DNA of 7,126 nucleotides from Candidatus Nitrosopumilus sp. (lineage in GTDB: Archaea > Thermoproteota > Nitrososphaeria > Nitrososphaerales > Nitrosopumilaceae). Below the pieces are notes generated by a model. It did no database searches. It was given only the letters and a program-made list of their open reading frames with translations, and was not told where the DNA came from. How positions within the stretch are numbered: the first letter of the stretch is position 1; each line of letters begins with the position of its first letter. The stretch lies in the NCBI GenBank assembly GCA_011055585.1, contig DRGT01000129.1, forward strand, positions 1 to 7,126, written 5' to 3'. Of the stretch, positions 1 to 7,126 are shown in pieces. Both the position numbers and the translations under genes were made by a program.

Positions 1-96
1 AAATTTAATTCCAGTAAATATAGTTCTGTCTAGACCATCCCAAATCCAATAGAAAAAACTGACCAATCCGGTCTGTCTACGTAATGAAGCGTCCAT
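1..96 (-). CDS. Cytochrome b/b6-type subunit of complex III, N-terminal 32 residues only
   Basis: This is the first 32 codons of a gene that runs off the left edge. The translation starts MDASLRRQTG and contains the stretch FYWIWDGLDRTIFTG, which I recognise as the N-terminus of thaumarchaeal cytochrome b/b6-domain proteins. In that family the subunit is a multi-pass membrane protein carrying the b haems and the quinol-oxidising site, and it works with the Rieske protein encoded just upstream. The ATG at 96-94 lies inside the end of the Rieske gene, in a different frame, with a 20-base overlap. This implies co-transcription and probably translational coupling. The nearest purine-rich sequence, AGGA, ends only one base before the ATG, too close for a normal ribosome site. 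Haem ligands lie outside the window, so the call rests on the short N-terminus plus the Rieske neighbour. Confidence 0.82.
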   Translation of the reverse strand, partial: MDASLRRQTGLVSFFYWIWDGLDRTIFTGIKF

Positions 97-682
97 ATCC
101 TACAACCCCATTTGCATTCACACCCCAGACGGGCGGTTTAATCCATAAAAATCCATCAATGTCTTCTTCAAAGTCAAGCTTTGGAAGTGTGTTTGAAGGA
201 GGAGCTTGAAGTGAAGCAGGTCCTGCAAATGCAGTTCCTGTTACTGGATTATACATGCTACCATGACATGGACATTCTCCCCTCTTACGACCCTCTTCCG
301 GCCAATATTTCCATAAACACCACAAATGAAGACAAATCATGCTGTAAGCTCTAAAAGAACTAACATCTTTTTTGTCTCCACCTAATTCTTCTGGCAAACG
401 AATGAATTGCCATTTTCTAAAGGCCTCTTCATCTAAAACGTCATCTCCAGTTTTAGGATAGGTGATAACTTCTGCATGGTTTGTTGGAAAAGTGTTAACA
501 TTAGCTTGTGTCCCATCGGGAAGAATTACTTTGACTTTTTCAAGAGATACTGAAGAAGGATTTGGCATGAAATTTCCCCACGGAACAAATGGAGCAAAGG
601 CCAAAGCTGTACCTGCAGCTCCCATTAATTTTAAAAAATCTCTTCGAGAAAGCCCACTAGAGCTCTGATCCTGCTCCGACAT
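77..682 (-). CDS. Rieske [2Fe-2S] iron-sulfur protein of complex III, Tat-exported
   Basis: From the ATG at 682 this encodes 201 residues. It should carry electrons from quinol at cytochrome b to a periplasmic-side acceptor (a small blue copper protein in ammonia-oxidising archaea). Both Rieske boxes are intact: C117-L-H119-L-W-C122 and C137-P-C139-H140-G-S142. C117, H119, C137 and H140 are the expected cluster ligands, and C122 and C139 the expected disulfide. A GPAS-LQAPP loop follows, matching the family's proline-rich loop. The N-terminus has a twin-arginine signal (S12-R13-R14-D-F-L-K) and a hydrophobic segment at about 19-36, probably kept as a membrane anchor. The frame stays open upstream to a TTG at 703 (208 aa), but the TATA box at 708-715 predicts transcription starting near 685, which would exclude that start. 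A GGAG six bases before the ATG also favours 682. The gene overlaps the cytochrome b start by 20 bases. Confidence 0.95.
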   Translation of the reverse strand: MSEQDQSSSGLSRRDFLKLMGAAGTALAFAPFVPWGNFMPNPSSVSLEKVKVILPDGTQANVNTFPTNHAEVITYPKTGDDVLDEEAFRKWQFIRLPEELGGDKKDVSSFRAYSMICLHLWCLWKYWPEEGRKRGECPCHGSMYNPVTGTAFAGPASLQAPPSNTLPKLDFEEDIDGFLWIKPPVWGVNANGVVGYGRFIT

Positions 683-707
683 GCCAAGCTCCGTACTTGC
701 CAAATTG

Positions 708-722: not shown

Positions 723-3700
723 TCATTGTTTTTTGGAAATTTTCTTTTTTCGAATAGCTAGTGGAATAAAACTAGCTCCGATCGCGATACCAATTCCAAT
801 TCCAATAATAAGATAATAACTTGAATCTATTGTTGTTTCAACATCTGTTGGTTTTTTCTCAATTATAGAATGATCAACTGTAAATTGAATTGTTTTTGTT
901 GCAATATTATCAGCTTTGTCACTAGATGTGATTTGAATTTCATAATCTCCATCATCTAAGCTAGAAGTATCAAACTCAAATAAAGTTTGATCAATTATTG
1001 TTTCTCCTGTTGGAAGAATAATAGAAACAGCCTCATTTTCAGGTAAATTCACGTCATTGACAGTAAAATTAATTAAAAGAGTTTCAGAAACTTTCATGCC
1101 TTCTGTTGGAGAGTTAATGTCAAGTTGAGGTTCCAAAGTGTCTAAATTAAATTCAAAAATTTCTGTAGAACTGTTTCCAGAAAGATCTATCGCCATAATT
1201 TTAATTTCATGAAATCCATCGGAGAGTGATTCTAATTTTATTTGCTCTGTTGCATTAAAAATAAATTCTTCATCATCAAGAAAATATTTTACAACATCAA
1301 GATTATCATCTTTTATTTCAGGATTTTCAAGATAATCTTGGTTTACAAATTCCGGAATTTGAAAAATTATTTCTGGTTTTTTGTCATCGGGTGAAATTGT
1401 TGTAAACTTTGCAATAATTGTAATTGGTTCAGTTGTAGAATTTCCACCAAACAAACCTGAATGAAGCAGCATGCTATATGTTCCAGTTTGATTAATTGGT
1501 ACATTCAAAACTGTTGATGTATCATCTTTGTTTTTTACTGGGAAAAATCCTCCACCCTGACTAAACGGTGAAGTTCCAAGCCAGTCTATGGATGGCCATC
1601 CCAGGAAATTGCCAAATACTCCCGATGGGACATTTGTTTGAACAATTTTTCCGTTTGGATCCATTACAAAAACTGAAAAGTGTGAATCTTTGTCTTTCCA
1701 TGAAACATCAATTGACGCTGAATTAATTGTTGGATCTTCAATGTCAAAATAATATTGTCTCCAATCACCAGCCATGTATCTATTAACCATATCAAATGCT
1801 CCTTTCACGTATCCATTTCCAAAAAGAACGTCTTCACTTTGTTTACCAGTAATTAAAACAATTGAATCTTTTTCATCAATTGTTTTCTTTACAACAAACG
1901 AAACAGGAACGTTAGCTGTATGTTGATCTCCTTCAAATGTTAAAAATCCTTGATATACACCAGATTGATAATTTATTGGAGTAATAATTGTGGCTTTAAG
2001 TTTTGAAGAACTGTTTGGAGGAACCGTAATTCTTTCTTCATTTACCCAAATTACATCCCATTTTTCTTTGTTGTAGTAACTAGCTGATAATGTATAATCC
2101 ATTGAAGTTGAATTTAATTTTGTTTCGCCAGTCCAATAAGAAAATCTAATTGGAACAGGATAAACTCCTATTAGAGGTACATTTTCAAATTTTTCGTTTG
2201 GTTCAGAAACTCTAACTTCTTGAACTGTGCCCCATGAACCGCCACGATTAATCATAGATAGCTCATCACTTGAAATATCATTGTCATCATTTTTGTCATT
2301 CCAATCATAAAGATAAAGAGAAGAAATTCTCAAATCATTAGCAAAAACATCATCAGTTTTGTTTAGGAATGTATCAAATGGAAAATTTACATTGAGGATC
2401 ATCAATGAAGCATCGGATGGAATTGGATTTGATTCATCAAAAAGTGATTCAAGTGTTTTGTGTTCTTTAACATCAGAAAGTCTGATGTAATTTGGTGCAT
2501 AAGTTCCCGTTTCATTTAAAATTGGATCTTGTTGTTGCACTTTAGTCATTCCATTAAATTCGGTTTTTTGAATTAATTCTAATTTTTGTGGTTTAATTGT
2601 TATTTCTAGTGGCTGTGATGAGGGATTTTCTATTGTAAATGTAGCAGTACTTCGTTCGCCGGGAGAGAGTTGTCCACCAAACCAGCTTGTATGATAAAGT
2701 TTTTTGTCAGGTAGTTGGAATTTTTCGAATCCAAAAGCAGTAGAGTTTAGTTTTTCAAATGGACCATCCAAAATTTTCTTTACATTAGAATAAGTGGCAT
2801 CATTATAAACAATGAACATGCCCTCTTCGCCTTCTACAAATCTTATTGCATCATTTACATTCACAAGTCCTGAACCTTGAGTAAATGGATCGTTTTGCAG
2901 ATCAGTTGCAGTAGACATGAGAATGTTTTTTACTCTATATGGATCTGGTTCTTGTAATTTTTCTTTCATGCTTTGTATCACTAATGCTGCACTGCCTGAA
3001 ACAAGAGGTGCAGCCATACTTGTTCCTCCAAATAACGAAAATGGCTCTCTTGTAGAATTTTTTTCAAGTTTTGTTACTGATGCTGGTGTAAAACTATATG
3101 CTCCTATACTCATTAAATCAGGTTTTGGATCTCCAATTATTCCAGGACCTCTACTTGAAAAATCAACTACGTGGTTTTTGTGATCAGTAGTATTTCCAAA
3201 TCTTGGTTGATCCTTGAAAGTTGAATAACCAACAAATACATTATTTGTTGTTGCGCCAACTGAAATTGCAAAAGGCGCTGCACTCGGTAATCCTACAGTT
3301 CCATATCCATGACCAGAATTGCCAGCACTTGTCACCATTGTAACTCCTGGATAATTAGCATCAAGAGATTTTGGTGTAGCAAGAACATTTACAATTAAAG
3401 ATAAAATATCTACACCAGGTGGTGTTTCAAACGATGGAAAATTTGAAACGCCCCAACTGTTTGAAATAATATCGACTCTAGGACTACCTGAAAACTTCCA
3501 TTCAGTTTCTTCGTTATCAAAACCAGATAACCATAACCACGAGTAAACAGTATCACCAAACCATAATGCCTTTACAGGAATGATTTTTGCATCAGGTGCA
3601 ACTCCTTTAATTGTAAATTTTTTTGTGTTGTTGTAAATATCATATTCTTGAACACCTTGAGAAACAATTGATGCCGAAACTGATGTACCATGTCCCAAAA

Positions 3701-4970
3701 AATCAGTCATCACACCAAAGAACTGTCCATTTTCATCCATTGGTGGTAGCAAAGTTCCGTTTACTGCTTTGAATGTGTCATCGATTTCAGATTTTGTGTC
3801 TTGAATTATTCCATGAACATCTAATACTTTAGCTCCCACCGTACCTGCACTATAATCAAATTTTCCATCATCATCAAAATCATAAACTAAAAATTCATTT
3901 CCATCACCTATCTTAATTGGAATTTCATCAGTAAAATCAAAATCATAATCAGGTCGTTCTCCACTGGGTAAATCAAATCTTGTGTAATCTTCCCATGATG
4001 TTGAAAGATCTGGAATTATTGTATCGTAAACACCTTTTACAGTAGAATCTACAACCAATACTGGTACAACTTGAATTCTAGCATTAGCTCCTGCAAGAGA
4101 ACCTTGATACATTACTCCTAGATGATAAATTCCACTTTGTGAACGAATGTAATCTCGATTGTTTTGTCCAATTTTCATATCTTCAAGCAAGGTTCCATTA
4201 AAAACCGGAGCTCCGCCAGCTTGTGGATAAAACGAATTGTAAATTTCTATTTGAGTCCCGTTTCCATCTTGATGTATATCAAGAAAAACTCCACTTTTAT
4301 TTCGATAAGCTTTTGAAGTGATATCGTCAGGCAATGTCTTGGAATAGTTTCTAATTATTCCATCTTTATCAATACTAGCGAAAAATGTAGCATTTGTAAG
4401 AATAATTCCTTGACCGTCTGCATCTAACATTATTGGATTGTTATCTTTGTCTCTGGCCAAAGAATGTTGAATATCAGGATTTGAAAAGTCTACACCAGTA
4501 TCAACAACTGCTATAGTGACTCCCTTACCAGTGAAACCAAAATCTTCATGAACCTTGTCAGAATTTACAATTTCTCCAATTTTGGAAACTTCTTTGATGT
4601 CATCTTGTTGGTGAAACTCCAATGGAAAATCTTCTATAACAAAGTATCCTTGTGATTTAAGTTGAGAAATTTTATTTTCTGTCGATACAATTACTGAGAA
4701 AAATCCATTATTTGATTGAACTAAATTAATTTCTGATTTAATGTCATTTAATTTACCAGAACCAAAAATAAGATATCTTTTTTGAATTTTTTGTTGTTCT
4801 GTAACAATTGGATCAAGTGTTACGATACCTGAAGAAAAATCAAAAACTGATGAATTTGGTTGTGAATTTTGTTGAGGTAGATCACCTCCTAAAAAACCAT
4901 AGGAATTACTAGAAAATGCTGAAATTAGCAGAACTATTGAAAGCAAAATTGCCACTTTGGGCATAGTCAT
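723..4970 (-). CDS. Giant membrane-anchored subtilisin-like (S8) serine protease
   Basis: This encodes a 1415-aa secreted endopeptidase of the subtilase family. In order it has a signal peptide (about 4-24), a propeptide-like region (about 60-120), and an S8 catalytic domain with Asp157 (VVDTGV), His427 (GHGT), oxyanion Asn551 (SAGNSG) and Ser651 (GGTSMAAP). All four are intact, so it should be active. Asp and His are 270 residues apart, far more than in typical subtilisins. Residues about 760-1190 form several beta-rich regions, followed by two Ig-like repeats with an 89-residue period (about 1197-1366), one Gly-rich transmembrane helix (about 1386-1406) and a Lys/Arg tail. The catalytic part should face outward. 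I count 20 N-x-S/T sequons. The gene lies 25 bases behind the coiled-coil protein gene. The ATG at 4964 is an alternative start. The substrate is unknown; processing or turnover of surface proteins is an inference from context. Confidence 0.93.
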   Translation of the reverse strand: MTMPKVAILLSIVLLISAFSSNSYGFLGGDLPQQNSQPNSSVFDFSSGIVTLDPIVTEQQKIQKRYLIFGSGKLNDIKSEINLVQSNNGFFSVIVSTENKISQLKSQGYFVIEDFPLEFHQQDDIKEVSKIGEIVNSDKVHEDFGFTGKGVTIAVVDTGVDFSNPDIQHSLARDKDNNPIMLDADGQGIILTNATFFASIDKDGIIRNYSKTLPDDITSKAYRNKSGVFLDIHQDGNGTQIEIYNSFYPQAGGAPVFNGTLLEDMKIGQNNRDYIRSQSGIYHLGVMYQGSLAGANARIQVVPVLVVDSTVKGVYDTIIPDLSTSWEDYTRFDLPSGERPDYDFDFTDEIPIKIGDGNEFLVYDFDDDGKFDYSAGTVGAKVLDVHGIIQDTKSEIDDTFKAVNGTLLPPMDENGQFFGVMTDFLGHGTSVSASIVSQGVQEYDIYNNTKKFTIKGVAPDAKIIPVKALWFGDTVYSWLWLSGFDNEETEWKFSGSPRVDIISNSWGVSNFPSFETPPGVDILSLIVNVLATPKSLDANYPGVTMVTSAGNSGHGYGTVGLPSAAPFAISVGATTNNVFVGYSTFKDQPRFGNTTDHKNHVVDFSSRGPGIIGDPKPDLMSIGAYSFTPASVTKLEKNSTREPFSLFGGTSMAAPLVSGSAALVIQSMKEKLQEPDPYRVKNILMSTATDLQNDPFTQGSGLVNVNDAIRFVEGEEGMFIVYNDATYSNVKKILDGPFEKLNSTAFGFEKFQLPDKKLYHTSWFGGQLSPGERSTATFTIENPSSQPLEITIKPQKLELIQKTEFNGMTKVQQQDPILNETGTYAPNYIRLSDVKEHKTLESLFDESNPIPSDASLMILNVNFPFDTFLNKTDDVFANDLRISSLYLYDWNDKNDDNDISSDELSMINRGGSWGTVQEVRVSEPNEKFENVPLIGVYPVPIRFSYWTGETKLNSTSMDYTLSASYYNKEKWDVIWVNEERITVPPNSSSKLKATIITPINYQSGVYQGFLTFEGDQHTANVPVSFVVKKTIDEKDSIVLITGKQSEDVLFGNGYVKGAFDMVNRYMAGDWRQYYFDIEDPTINSASIDVSWKDKDSHFSVFVMDPNGKIVQTNVPSGVFGNFLGWPSIDWLGTSPFSQGGGFFPVKNKDDTSTVLNVPINQTGTYSMLLHSGLFGGNSTTEPITIIAKFTTISPDDKKPEIIFQIPEFVNQDYLENPEIKDDNLDVVKYFLDDEEFIFNATEQIKLESLSDGFHEIKIMAIDLSGNSSTEIFEFNLDTLEPQLDINSPTEGMKVSETLLINFTVNDVNLPENEAVSIILPTGETIIDQTLFEFDTSSLDDGDYEIQITSSDKADNIATKTIQFTVDHSIIEKKPTDVETTIDSSYYLIIGIGIGIAIGASFIPLAIRKKKISKKQ
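906..1229 (-). repeat. Two tandem Ig-like domains at the protease C-terminus, 89-residue period
   Basis: Protease residues 1248-1266 (1229-1173) and 1337-1355 (962-906) share the pattern S-L-x-D-G-x-x-E-I-x-I, with an Asp and an Asn later, each at an exact 89-residue offset. This is the end strand region of two consecutive Ig-like domains that place the catalytic part away from the transmembrane helix. Copies are diverged at the DNA level. Confidence 0.65.
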
Positions 4971-4987
4971 TGAAGTTTTTTTTGCAT

Positions 4988-4995
4988 TATTATAA
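4988..4995 (-). promoter_or_regulatory. Possible TATA box for the S8 protease gene
   Basis: The minus strand reads TTATAATA in the 25-base gap between the coiled-coil gene and the protease gene. Its centre predicts a transcription start near 4965, right at the second in-frame ATG (4964). That would give a leaderless mRNA beginning at MPKVAILL. No Shine-Dalgarno-like sequence precedes either ATG; the bases before 4970 are an A-run followed by CTTCA. In such AT-rich DNA a TATA-like match can occur by chance, and the short gap fits co-transcription equally well. Confidence 0.35.
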
Positions 4996-5988
4996 TTATC
5001 TTCTTCTTGCGAGTATCACAACTTGTAATGCAACTATAATTCCTATTGCGCCAACTATTGGAAATAATAATGAATTAAGTTGTGTAGATGCTTCTTCCAT
5101 GTTTTCCACTGAAGAAGACATGGATGTTACGCTTGAGGCGATGTTAGTGCTAGCTGACGTTAATGTAGAATCAAATTCCTCAATTCTAGATTCTAAAATA
5201 TCAAGTTCACTTGATGTTTCATCTAAAATAGAATTTAGTTTTACAATTTGTTCTGATATTCCACTAATATCTTGTTTTAATACAGTTGTTGCAGCAGAAC
5301 CATGTGAAGTTGAGCCTTGACTAAAAGTTACAACATGAAAGACATATGTTCCTTCAAAAGTAGCAGTATAATCAACAAAATACAGACCTGGATGTAAAGT
5401 TTGAAATGAAGATGTTAGAGTTTGTACTTCATCATTTGGAAGATGAACATGTGACGTTTTAAGAAGTTCTTGTGGTTCACCGCCAACCAGCATGCCATCA
5501 CTTGTAGTTTGTACAAAAATTCTAAATGGAGTATTTACTGCTGCGGTTTCTGGGGCAAAAACTAAAGTGTTTATCTGTCTTTCAACTGGAACTTCAATAA
5601 GCTCTGTAGTTGATGTAAATTTGACGTCTATTGTTTTTGATATTCCATTTTGTGTACTACTAATTACTTCAACGGTGTATGTTCCATATGGAAACGTTAT
5701 TGAAGAATCTGGCCATGTTAATAGAACGTGATTGAACGAGCCATCTGTACCTACTTGAACTTGATCAAATTTTGCAATTGTTCCATCGGGTGCAAATAAT
5801 CTTATGATTATGGTTTCATCTGGTAAAGCTTTTCCATAAACAAAAAGTGGTTTACCATCGGTGTAGACTTTATTGTCAGTGAATATATCAAATGTTACTG
5901 AGAAACCTGTTTGAATAAAGCTCATGGAAATAATTCCTAACAGTGTGATTACAAAAATTGTTTTCAATTTAGCTTTATTTGAAATCAT
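4996..5988 (-). CDS. Signal-peptide, two beta-domain, coiled-coil stalk protein with C-terminal membrane anchor (candidate S-layer anchor)
   Basis: I do not recognise a named family for this 330-aa protein. It has a signal peptide (1-30: positively charged start, then a hydrophobic core). A first beta-sandwich-like domain (about 31-125) shows the D-x-G-S-F and Y-G-T-Y-T-V-E-V pattern common in extracellular Ig-like domains. A second beta domain (about 138-222) has a histidine group: H180, H182, H199, H218. A coiled coil (241-307) follows, with I, L or M at ten successive heptad a-positions (241, 248, 255 and so on to 304). A transmembrane helix (about 309-326) ends in RRR, so the body faces outside. 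It lies downstream of the S-layer gene and 25 bases before the protease. The architecture matches the stalk protein SlaB of Sulfolobales, hence the proposed anchoring role. Its own promoter is unclear: TTTTAAAA overlapping the upstream T-tract is one weak option. No N-x-S/T sequon was found. Confidence 0.9.
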   Translation of the reverse strand: MISNKAKLKTIFVITLLGIISMSFIQTGFSVTFDIFTDNKVYTDGKPLFVYGKALPDETIIIRLFAPDGTIAKFDQVQVGTDGSFNHVLLTWPDSSITFPYGTYTVEVISSTQNGISKTIDVKFTSTTELIEVPVERQINTLVFAPETAAVNTPFRIFVQTTSDGMLVGGEPQELLKTSHVHLPNDEVQTLTSSFQTLHPGLYFVDYTATFEGTYVFHVVTFSQGSTSHGSAATTVLKQDISGISEQIVKLNSILDETSSELDILESRIEEFDSTLTSASTNIASSVTSMSSSVENMEEASTQLNSLLFPIVGAIGIIVALQVVILARRR

Positions 5989-6052
5989 CTCATAGATATT
6001 ACTTCTGGAATATTGATCTAGTTTTTGATAACTATCGTTAGGTTGTGTTTTT

Positions 6053-6086
6053 AAAAAAAAGAAAAAAGGGGAAAGTTTGAACTTTC
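6053..6086 (-). terminator. Stem-loop plus T-tract terminator of the S-layer gene
   Basis: Fourteen bases after the S-layer stop, the minus strand has the perfect inverted repeat GAAAGTT-CA-AACTTTC (6086-6071). It is followed by CCC and then a pyrimidine run of six T, one C and eight T. A T-rich tract alone can terminate archaeal transcription; the added palindrome makes this a strong terminator candidate. It separates the presumably very highly expressed S-layer gene from the coiled-coil gene starting at 5988, and may let a minority of transcripts read through. Confidence 0.75.
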
Positions 6087-6099
6087 TTGTTGTCTAGTC

Positions 6100-7126
6100 T
6101 TAACTTACAGATATGTCGACTGATGCGGGTGGTGATAGTGCAGTTGGATTATCAACTGACTCCCAAACAAACACTGTTGCAGTGTATGTGCCTGATGCGT
6201 CAGGTGTCCAAGACAATGCTGGGCTAAATGATTGTCCAGCAGAGAGTGTACCTGAAATCCATGCTAGTGCGATTGTGACACCGCTAGCATCCTGAACCTG
6301 TACCAAGTATGCAAATGATTGTTCTCTATCTTGGCCATTTGCTAAGTCGGCTGTAATCTGTACCTGTTGATCAATGGATACACTTGCTAGTGAATTTCCG
6401 AATGCGTCAACAACTCTTGCGTTAGCAGCGGGTGCTCTCTCAAGAGGTGGAACGATTGTGCCGATTAGTGAAGTGCCAGTAATGTCGAGTTCATCTGCTG
6501 TGGTATATGGATCAGGTAGTGTATTGTCCTCATATTCTGCGGTGATTGTGTCACCTTCTGAAACTCTGAGTCTGTGACCAGAAGATTCATCGGTAGTAGT
6601 GAAGAACACTGTTCCCTCGAATATTCCAGTTGCCTCATTAGTTTCAGTTACAGTAAGGTCAATACCTCCAGCGTCAGAATCTGACCAAACGTCGACATTA
6701 AAGTTGTCGACTGCTTCTGGATTTAGATTCATGTCTGGGTCAACTACACGTACTACGCCTGTTCCGCTTGCGGGATAACTTGCTTCAAGCCATTGAGTTT
6801 CACCGATGTTCCATCTGACGAGTGCTGAGCCGACTACAGTTTCATCCTCTGAGAATTCAAAGGAGACTGTAATACCGTCATCATCATCAGTTTGTAGGAA
6901 ACCGCTGGTTGGACCTGAACCCTCTGTTCTTGGGTTAGTGTCTGCACCAACTGTTCCAGTGGTATCACCAGTTAATGTATCACCATCTGCGTCGTGTGCG
7001 AATCCTGTAAGGATTACTTCACCTGTGAAGATACCAGTATCGGTACCTGTCTCGACTAGCTTGTATTCGTTAAGTTTGAATCCTCTGGTCGCGACCTTTA
7101 CTGGGTCAAGACTAGTTTCTCCAATT
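6100..7126 (-). CDS. S-layer lattice protein, C-terminal 341 residues (5' end outside window)
   Basis: The frame is open from the right edge to the TAA at 6102-6100, so the gene is truncated by the window. The ATG at 6732 is internal, because coding sequence continues above it without a stop. The product is acidic, rich in Thr, Gly, Val and Asp, free of Cys and beta-rich, like the major thaumarchaeal S-layer protein that forms the cell's outer lattice. Two copies of an E-T-x-x-x-T-G-I-F-x-G motif about 136 residues apart mark repeated Ig-like domains. A DDDDG run could help bind cations. The last ~105 residues form a separate beta domain ending in a TYTATVFVWES strand and DISVS. There is no C-terminal membrane helix, so this end cannot anchor itself. 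A hand count of one 60-base row (6121-6180) gives 47% GC, well above the protease gene, consistent with codon selection in an abundant protein. Confidence 0.85.
   Translation of the reverse strand, partial: IGETSLDPVKVATRGFKLNEYKLVETGTDTGIFTGEVILTGFAHDADGDTLTGDTTGTVGADTNPRTEGSGPTSGFLQTDDDDGITVSFEFSEDETVVGSALVRWNIGETQWLEASYPASGTGVVRVVDPDMNLNPEAVDNFNVDVWSDSDAGGIDLTVTETNEATGIFEGTVFFTTTDESSGHRLRVSEGDTITAEYEDNTLPDPYTTADELDITGTSLIGTIVPPLERAPAANARVVDAFGNSLASVSIDQQVQITADLANGQDREQSFAYLVQVQDASGVTIALAWISGTLSAGQSFSPALSWTPDASGTYTATVFVWESVDNPTALSPPASVDISVS
6595..7053 (-). repeat. Two divergent Ig-like domain repeats in the S-layer protein
   Basis: Seventeen residues at 7053-7003 (ETGTDTGIFTGEV...) and at 6645-6595 (ETNEATGIFEGTV...) align without gaps, sharing E-T, T-G-I-F, a G two residues later and a V. 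Their starts are 408 bases (136 residues) apart. The likeness is at protein level only, so these look like old domain duplications rather than a recent DNA repeat. More copies probably lie upstream, outside the window. Confidence 0.6.

Follow-up and report, generated by a model that had tools for sequence, protein, structure and literature searches.

How do ammonia-oxidizing archaea (AOA) hold their surface (S-) layer lattice on the cell, and does a giant membrane protease belong to that arrangement? The question is raised by a 7,126-nucleotide (nt) stretch of Candidatus Nitrosopumilus sp. (contig DRGT01000129.1), which we call the window. These archaea rank among the major nitrifiers of the ocean; at stake are the anchoring and upkeep of their lattice. 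On the minus strand the window carries, in order, the C terminus of an NmSLP-type lattice protein, a coiled-coil membrane protein, a 1415-amino-acid (aa) S8 protease, and a Rieske protein, with spacers of 111 nt between lattice and stalk and 25 nt between stalk and protease. The first-pass annotation, made from the sequence alone, had read the first three genes as an assembly resembling the S-layer protein tetrabrachion and its subtilase STABLE from Staphylothermus marinus. These three open reading frames (ORFs) do follow one another on one strand, and the Rieske gene, in the same direction, is part of the conserved neighborhood too. The order is not confined to this strain; it recurs in dozens of genomes and exceeds chance. 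We propose, with a probability of roughly 60%, that this is a cell-envelope cluster in which a lattice and a SlaB-type stalk are accompanied by a membrane-tethered accessory subtilase that works under the lattice and is probably coexpressed with the stalk.

The lattice gene is paired with a predicted SlaB-type stalk gene

We found that the lattice fragment corresponds to residues 1401 to 1734 of N. maritimus NmSLP (PDB 8c8k; E = 8.9e-181). The homology to Nmar_1547 runs across the C-terminal Ig domains, and only the C-terminal 341 aa of the protein lie within the window. No C-terminal transmembrane (TM) helix was found in this fragment by hydropathy. According to the available text of the structural study of NmSLP (Nmar_1547, PDB 8C8K series; von Kugelgen et al. 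2024; PMC11153153), the lattice covers the cell almost without gaps and is thought to concentrate ammonium. The same text describes a minor SlaB homologue with a C-terminal TM helix in most Nitrososphaerota, reported for Nitrosopumilus as well.

The second ORF (4996-5988, 330 aa) encodes a signal sequence, a coiled coil, and a C-terminal TM helix. Its AlphaFold2 (AF2) model (predicted local distance difference test [pLDDT] score, 84.1) contains two beta-sandwich domains and a coiled coil, and the top Foldseek match of the model is SlaB (8qox_B; 6.9e-10). The protein also matches the NCBIfam SlaB family NF040788 (E = 2e-10, 40.2 bits), below a 700-bit equivalog cutoff that S. acidocaldarius also misses. 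The stalk profile reached 8qox_B at E = 0.0015, and a single-sequence search gave only E = 0.033. By these family, profile, and fold matches, the coiled-coil protein is predicted to be a SlaB-type stalk. Its N-terminal beta-sandwiches and its C-terminal coiled coil with TM helix were seen by AF2, hydropathy, Foldseek, and VIA-align to 8qox_B; the sandwiches number two, not three. VIA-align ranked complement and alpha-2-macroglobulin domains above SlaB, and we discarded a function of that kind for the stalk, as only the sandwich fold is shared. The first-pass pairing of a lattice with a coiled-coil stalk is thus borne out by the NmSLP and SlaB matches. Its picture of membrane anchoring holds for the stalk and the subtilase, which have TM helices.

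The hydrophobic period of the coil is 102 degrees, with a power of 0.46 at the heptad angle and 0.14 at the 11-residue angle, and the peak was reached by 0 of 1000 shuffles. At this periodicity we did not find right-handed, 11-residue repeats in the stalk.

The SlaB family search across 300 genomes of the phylum gave matches in 162 at 1e-5, with 5 above the cutoff. Among 14 controls, Bacillus subtilis and Caulobacter also matched; thus, coiled-coil false positives are among the 162, and we give no SlaB count. Some public entries of the stalk family are labeled "methyl-accepting chemotaxis protein" or "tetrahydromethanopterin S-methyltransferase subunit B," for which the coiled coil may be the reason.

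The protease gene follows the stalk gene in most AOA loci

We scanned the neighborhoods of 95 confirmed relatives, kept 80 loci, and counted over those with enough flank. The protease lies directly 3' of the stalk in 72 of 78 scorable loci and further on in two others, by about 2.1 kb in L057 and about 1.3 kb in L062. In L062, a transposase-like ORF (6014-7219; IS605/TnpB-like by eye) lies between the two genes. The lattice gene is directly 5' of the stalk in 43 of 62 scorable loci, and a Rieske gene adjoins the protease in 54 of 61.

Across 300 genomes of the class, we found a stalk match (1e-3) in 192 and a protease match (1e-30) in 176. Among the matches listed (150 stalk matches in 148 genomes), a protease follows within 3 kb on the same strand for at least 119, in 117 genomes, with a median gap of 35 nt in profile coordinates. 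The other 31 listed stalk matches have no listed protease within 3 kb downstream and are accounted for in part.

The stalk-protease pairing is also kept where the lattice gene is not directly upstream. This is so at 19 loci, 18 of them scorable for the protease, which is adjacent in 16; the exceptions are L046, without a protease within 10 kb, and L057, as noted above. In 12 genomes, lattice and stalk are unlinked (one, G008, was scored through its locus L046), and all 12 hold lattice-type matches elsewhere. These are full length in at least five (G099, G080, G089, G146, and G052) and lie about 54 kb away in G080. L042 and L044 keep stalk and protease together without the usual lattice or Rieske neighbors, as does L050, where only 863 nt of upstream sequence are present.

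The first-pass annotation had suggested gene order across genomes as a check, and the order holds for Nitrosopumilales-type genomes but not for three Nitrososphaerales-like ones (2.5 to 3.0 Mb; their order placement was deduced by us). There, a lattice-type gene (24 to 30% identity) lies 44 to 51 nt 5' of the stalk, and the protease gene is elsewhere, between genes resembling those for ribosomal protein L11 and thioredoxin (named by eye). We also examined 20 regions outside the AOA set, chosen around the better SlaB-like matches rather than at random. In 12, a large ORF matching the AOA lattice profile is directly 5' of a stalk-like gene; in 5, another large ORF is upstream (4 SlaA-SlaB-like by reading); in 2, a SlaB-like part belongs to a single long chain; and 1 has neither. 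NmSLP-related lattice and SlaB-like stalk pairs outside the AOA set occur in L138, L139, L140, L144, L145, L152, and others. Since the lattice-stalk pair is found in Nitrososphaerales-like and other Thermoproteota genomes without an adjoining protease, we read it as the older unit, and its linkage looks older than the addition of the protease.

The subtilase is predicted to be tethered outside the membrane and is accessory

The 1415-aa protein matches the Pfam S8 family (E = 1.9e-38) and has a signal sequence and a C-terminal TM helix. The S8 domain contains the complete D, H, N, S set, and D157, H427, N551, and S651 are invariant across a 36-row alignment that includes the window subtilase. 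Its AF2 model (34 sequences; mean pLDDT, 58.5) showed only a general likeness to S8 proteases (Vpr and Streptococcus proteases). Together, the signal, catalytic residues, and C-terminal anchor predict a protease that looks active and is tethered on the outside of the membrane. Because the lattice is nearly gapless over the cell, the protease should act beneath it, and the space under the lattice is a plausible and the most likely location.

According to the available text of a study of Candidatus Nitrosospongia (PMC6790972), thaumarchaeal S8A proteases are mostly membrane anchored, and the enlarged set of sponge symbionts was interpreted as serving protein scavenging. These proteases probably include the family of the window protease, but for the S8A genes that text describes a link with serpins and transporters rather than with an S-layer cluster.

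We found eight loci that read lattice, stalk, and Rieske without a protease (L055, L070, L078, L097, L098, L099, L100, and L102; L055 and L103 belong to the same genome). A direct search of these eight genomes with the protease profile gave no match better than 6.3e-11, and two genomes had none at 1e-3. Most of the weak matches fall in frames of about 680 to 700 aa resembling a second, smaller S8 protease. The eight are drafts or metagenome-assembled genomes of unestablished completeness; the contig that carries L102, however, makes up 1.46 Mb of a 1.5-Mb genome. Four further stalk-bearing genomes (G161, G287, G288, and G293) are without the protease, with a best match of 3.4e-9. Since the eight genomes keep lattice and stalk, the protease is dispensable for having both and, judged by gene content, is an accessory rather than a required part. 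In L102 (3708-8498), the lattice gene is broken into ORFs of 733 and 855 aa.

A promoter-like element precedes the stalk gene

A 14-base element, AGAAGTAATATCTA, lies 5' of the stalk and is present also where no lattice gene precedes. We surveyed 89 loci, of which 13 were without the element or at a contig edge, using a pattern loosened after the data had been seen. In 72 of the 76 loci having it, an in-frame stalk start follows 22 to 28 nt 3' of the element (24 or 25 nt in 62). With a relaxed pattern, eight genomes gave 14 matches against 10 for the reversed control; 5 of the 14 lie just 5' of the stalk, and two genomes had none. AGAAGTAATATCTA is thus neither an abundant motif nor strictly private to the stalk, and the evidence for it is the fixed spacing.

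That spacing would fit a TATA-like promoter of a leaderless transcript. It also places the stalk start of the window probably at TTG 5967 rather than ATG 5988. Given the pairing of stalk and protease without an upstream lattice gene and the promoter-like element of the stalk itself, the two genes may form one transcription unit. In the available text of PMC5744192, slaA and slaB of the Sulfolobales are bicistronic with a conserved spacer, and the slaA transcript is much higher; a separate stalk promoter would instead part lattice and stalk here. The spacers of the three Nitrososphaerales-like genomes lack the element and contain a hairpin-like repeat and a T-rich run (by eye). We do not claim a spacer RNA structure: the candidate four-pair hairpin, with double changes at 3 of 4 pairs, reached only -1.02 kcal/mol.

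Comparison with SlaA/SlaB and tetrabrachion/STABLE

The cluster resembles SlaA/SlaB of the Sulfolobales in having the lattice gene directly 5' of the stalk gene and in the beta-sandwich domains and TM helix of the stalk; the SlaB coiled coil is trimeric (available text of PMC10903991 and PMC5744192). We found that gene order in the window, in the 43 of 62 loci, in the three Nitrososphaerales-like regions, and in other genomes. It differs in having two beta domains instead of three, a promoter-like element between the genes, and a protease gene 3'. The lattice also differs from SlaA: the AOA lattice profile A6 had no match at E = 0.01 to the large ORF 5' of SlaB (L147, L148, L154, and L155). 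The pairing suggests that SlaA/SlaB-style lattice-stalk arrangements are not confined to the Sulfolobales.

The likeness to tetrabrachion/STABLE is weak. A coiled-coil stalk and a large surface subtilase are common to both, and to that extent the first-pass comparison stands; it fails on coil repeat, gene layout, and membrane anchoring. The heptad coil spans about 65 residues here, in contrast to a 70-nm stalk with 11-residue repeats there (PMC5744192). Lattice and stalk are in separate genes rather than in the one gene for arms and stalk, and the protease, unlike STABLE, has its own TM helix.

Among 36 genomes from the SlaB-like list, five hold a protease relative at 1e-10. In four of them, the best stalk-like match lies at distances of about 72, 82, 131, and 456 kb; in the remaining one, it is on a different contig. 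In three of the five, this match is limited to the coiled-coil region of SlaB. Staphylothermus belongs to the Desulfurococcaceae. In Desulfurococcaceae-like genomes, subtilases of 1385 and 1394 aa (L169 and L170) match the AOA profile over the catalytic domain and the C-terminal part, and both end without an evident membrane helix (by eye); the former has named relatives in Thermosphaera and Desulfurococcaceae. Large ORFs of 997 to 1384 aa with a membrane-helix-like end and partial SlaB-model matches (L149, L156, L171, L173, L176, and L177) are possibly tetrabrachion-like single-chain S-layer proteins.

The first-pass annotation knew of no description of such a complex in this group. For the lattice-stalk part this does not hold: that half is largely known and has been outlined in print (PMC11153153). 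For the lattice-stalk-protease cluster, we found no description in the literature searched on AOA S-layers, SlaB, and subtilases, supplements excluded. The available text of PMC11153153 contains neither the gene order nor an adjacent protease, and "protease" appears once, for an inhibitor cocktail. What the gene content adds is a protease link that is conserved in one large branch of AOA but can be lost.

Weighing the role of the protease

In our proposal, the NmSLP-type protein would build the lattice of this Nitrosopumilaceae-like ammonia oxidizer, and the stalk, by analogy with SlaB, would pin it to the membrane through the coiled coil; the gene pair thus points to the protein that should anchor the lattice. 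The subtilase, held by its own C-terminal helix and probably expressed with the stalk as an accessory, would most likely act in the space below. It would probably degrade damaged envelope proteins or proteins and peptides entering that space, and it might dock on the stalk. Envelope-protein turnover and peptide scavenging both fit.

Several points weigh against this proposal. NmSLP is present in considerably larger amounts than the SlaB homologue, and its own tenth Ig domain may contribute to anchoring (available text of PMC11153153). Foldseek TM-scores between stalk and SlaB are low (0.26/0.19). Among the matches listed, ten Nitrososphaerales-like genomes have stalk and protease apart, three far apart on the same contig and seven on different contigs. 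The eight lattice-and-stalk genomes apparently without a protease argue against an obligate complex. Finally, co-divergence (mirror-tree) does not set the stalk-protease pair apart from an unrelated control gene. With Rieske as the sole control, the stalk-protease partial correlation was 0.61 (57 rows) or 0.69 (33 rows). With Rieske and cytochrome b as controls, it was 0.60, against 0.615 for Rieske-cytochrome b (53 loci). A cytosolic neighbor (DNA-glycosylase-like by eye) reached 0.65 when paired with the protease, against 0.59 for stalk-protease (29 loci); the values were 0.46 and 0.62 with one more control. We therefore give this test no weight.

That unspecific signal would suit a protease that serves nutrition (mixotrophy) independently and whose position next to the stalk reflects only shared expression or inherited order. 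So would its tight tie to the Rieske gene, its position between the L11-like and thioredoxin-like genes in the three Nitrososphaerales-like genomes, the mostly membrane-anchored state of thaumarchaeal S8A proteases, and the scavenging role given to the enlarged set of sponge symbionts (PMC6790972). The survival of the stalk pairing in L042, L044, and L050 without the usual neighbors speaks against it, and we regard this explanation as a real possibility that falls short of likely. The pairing without an upstream lattice and the possible shared transcription unit can also be read as signs of a STABLE-like assembly, with the subtilase bound to the coiled coil at a fixed height under the lattice. 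The related subtilases in Desulfurococcaceae-like genomes, the family of Staphylothermus, point the same way, and STABLE itself binds the tetrabrachion stalk (available text of PMC5744192). We consider such an assembly unlikely: the protease has its own TM helix and so needs no stalk for surface retention, the coil is heptad rather than 11-residue, the protease is missing from the eight lattice-and-stalk genomes, and, in the five non-AOA genomes that have a relative, the best stalk-like match is either distant from it or on a different contig. STABLE was also proposed to cleave the tetrabrachion precursor (PMC5744192), and the protease might in the same manner mature the lattice protein or the stalk. 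This is very improbable, as both persist in the eight genomes, whose best protease-profile matches are 6.3e-11 or weaker and mostly in the smaller frames.

Our accessory-subtilase proposal has a more far-reaching form, which we hold only tentatively and think doubtful as a whole. Stalk and giant subtilase would be a protease station of the Nitrosopumilales, encoded in one transcription unit and acting jointly under an ammonium-concentrating lattice, that was added to a lattice-stalk pair ancestral to much of the Thermoproteota. The natural presence and absence of the protease in otherwise similar loci opens its role to strain comparison.

Features of the window

The coordinates of the cluster are collected in Table 1.

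Table 1. Predicted and candidate features of the envelope cluster in the window
Feature	Position	Strand	Basis or remark
NmSLP-type (Nmar_1547-like) S-layer lattice protein, C-terminal 341 aa	6100..7125	-	8c8k_A match; 5' part beyond window
Oligo-T tract past lattice stop codon, candidate transcription terminator	6053..6071	-	Lattice-stalk spacers, 33 sequences aligned; putative function
Conserved element AGAAGTAATATCTA, candidate stalk-protease promoter	5993..6006	-	Spacing to in-frame start; putative function
SlaB-type membrane stalk, 323 aa from TTG 5967 (predicted)	4996..5967	-	NCBIfam SlaB, AF2, Foldseek; listed ORF start 5988
Stalk coiled coil, residues 241-306 of 330-aa ORF	5071..5268	-	Heptad periodicity
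Stalk C-terminal TM helix, residues 307-325 of 330-aa ORF	5014..5070	-	Hydropathy
S8 subtilase, 1415 aa: signal, large insert between catalytic D and H, further domains, C-terminal TM helix	723..4970	-	
Subtilase S8 catalytic domain, residues 148-700	2871..4529	-	PF00082, E = 1.9e-38
Subtilase C-terminal TM helix, residues 1388-1406	753..809	-	Hydropathy
Rieske protein with twin-arginine translocation (Tat) signal	77..703	-	True start probably ATG 682 (codon 8); conserved neighbor 3' of protease

At many loci, respiratory genes (Rieske and cytochrome b-like) lie 3' of the S-layer cluster. In L045, a transposase-like ORF (15312-16526; IS605/TnpB-like by eye) lies between the protease and Rieske genes.

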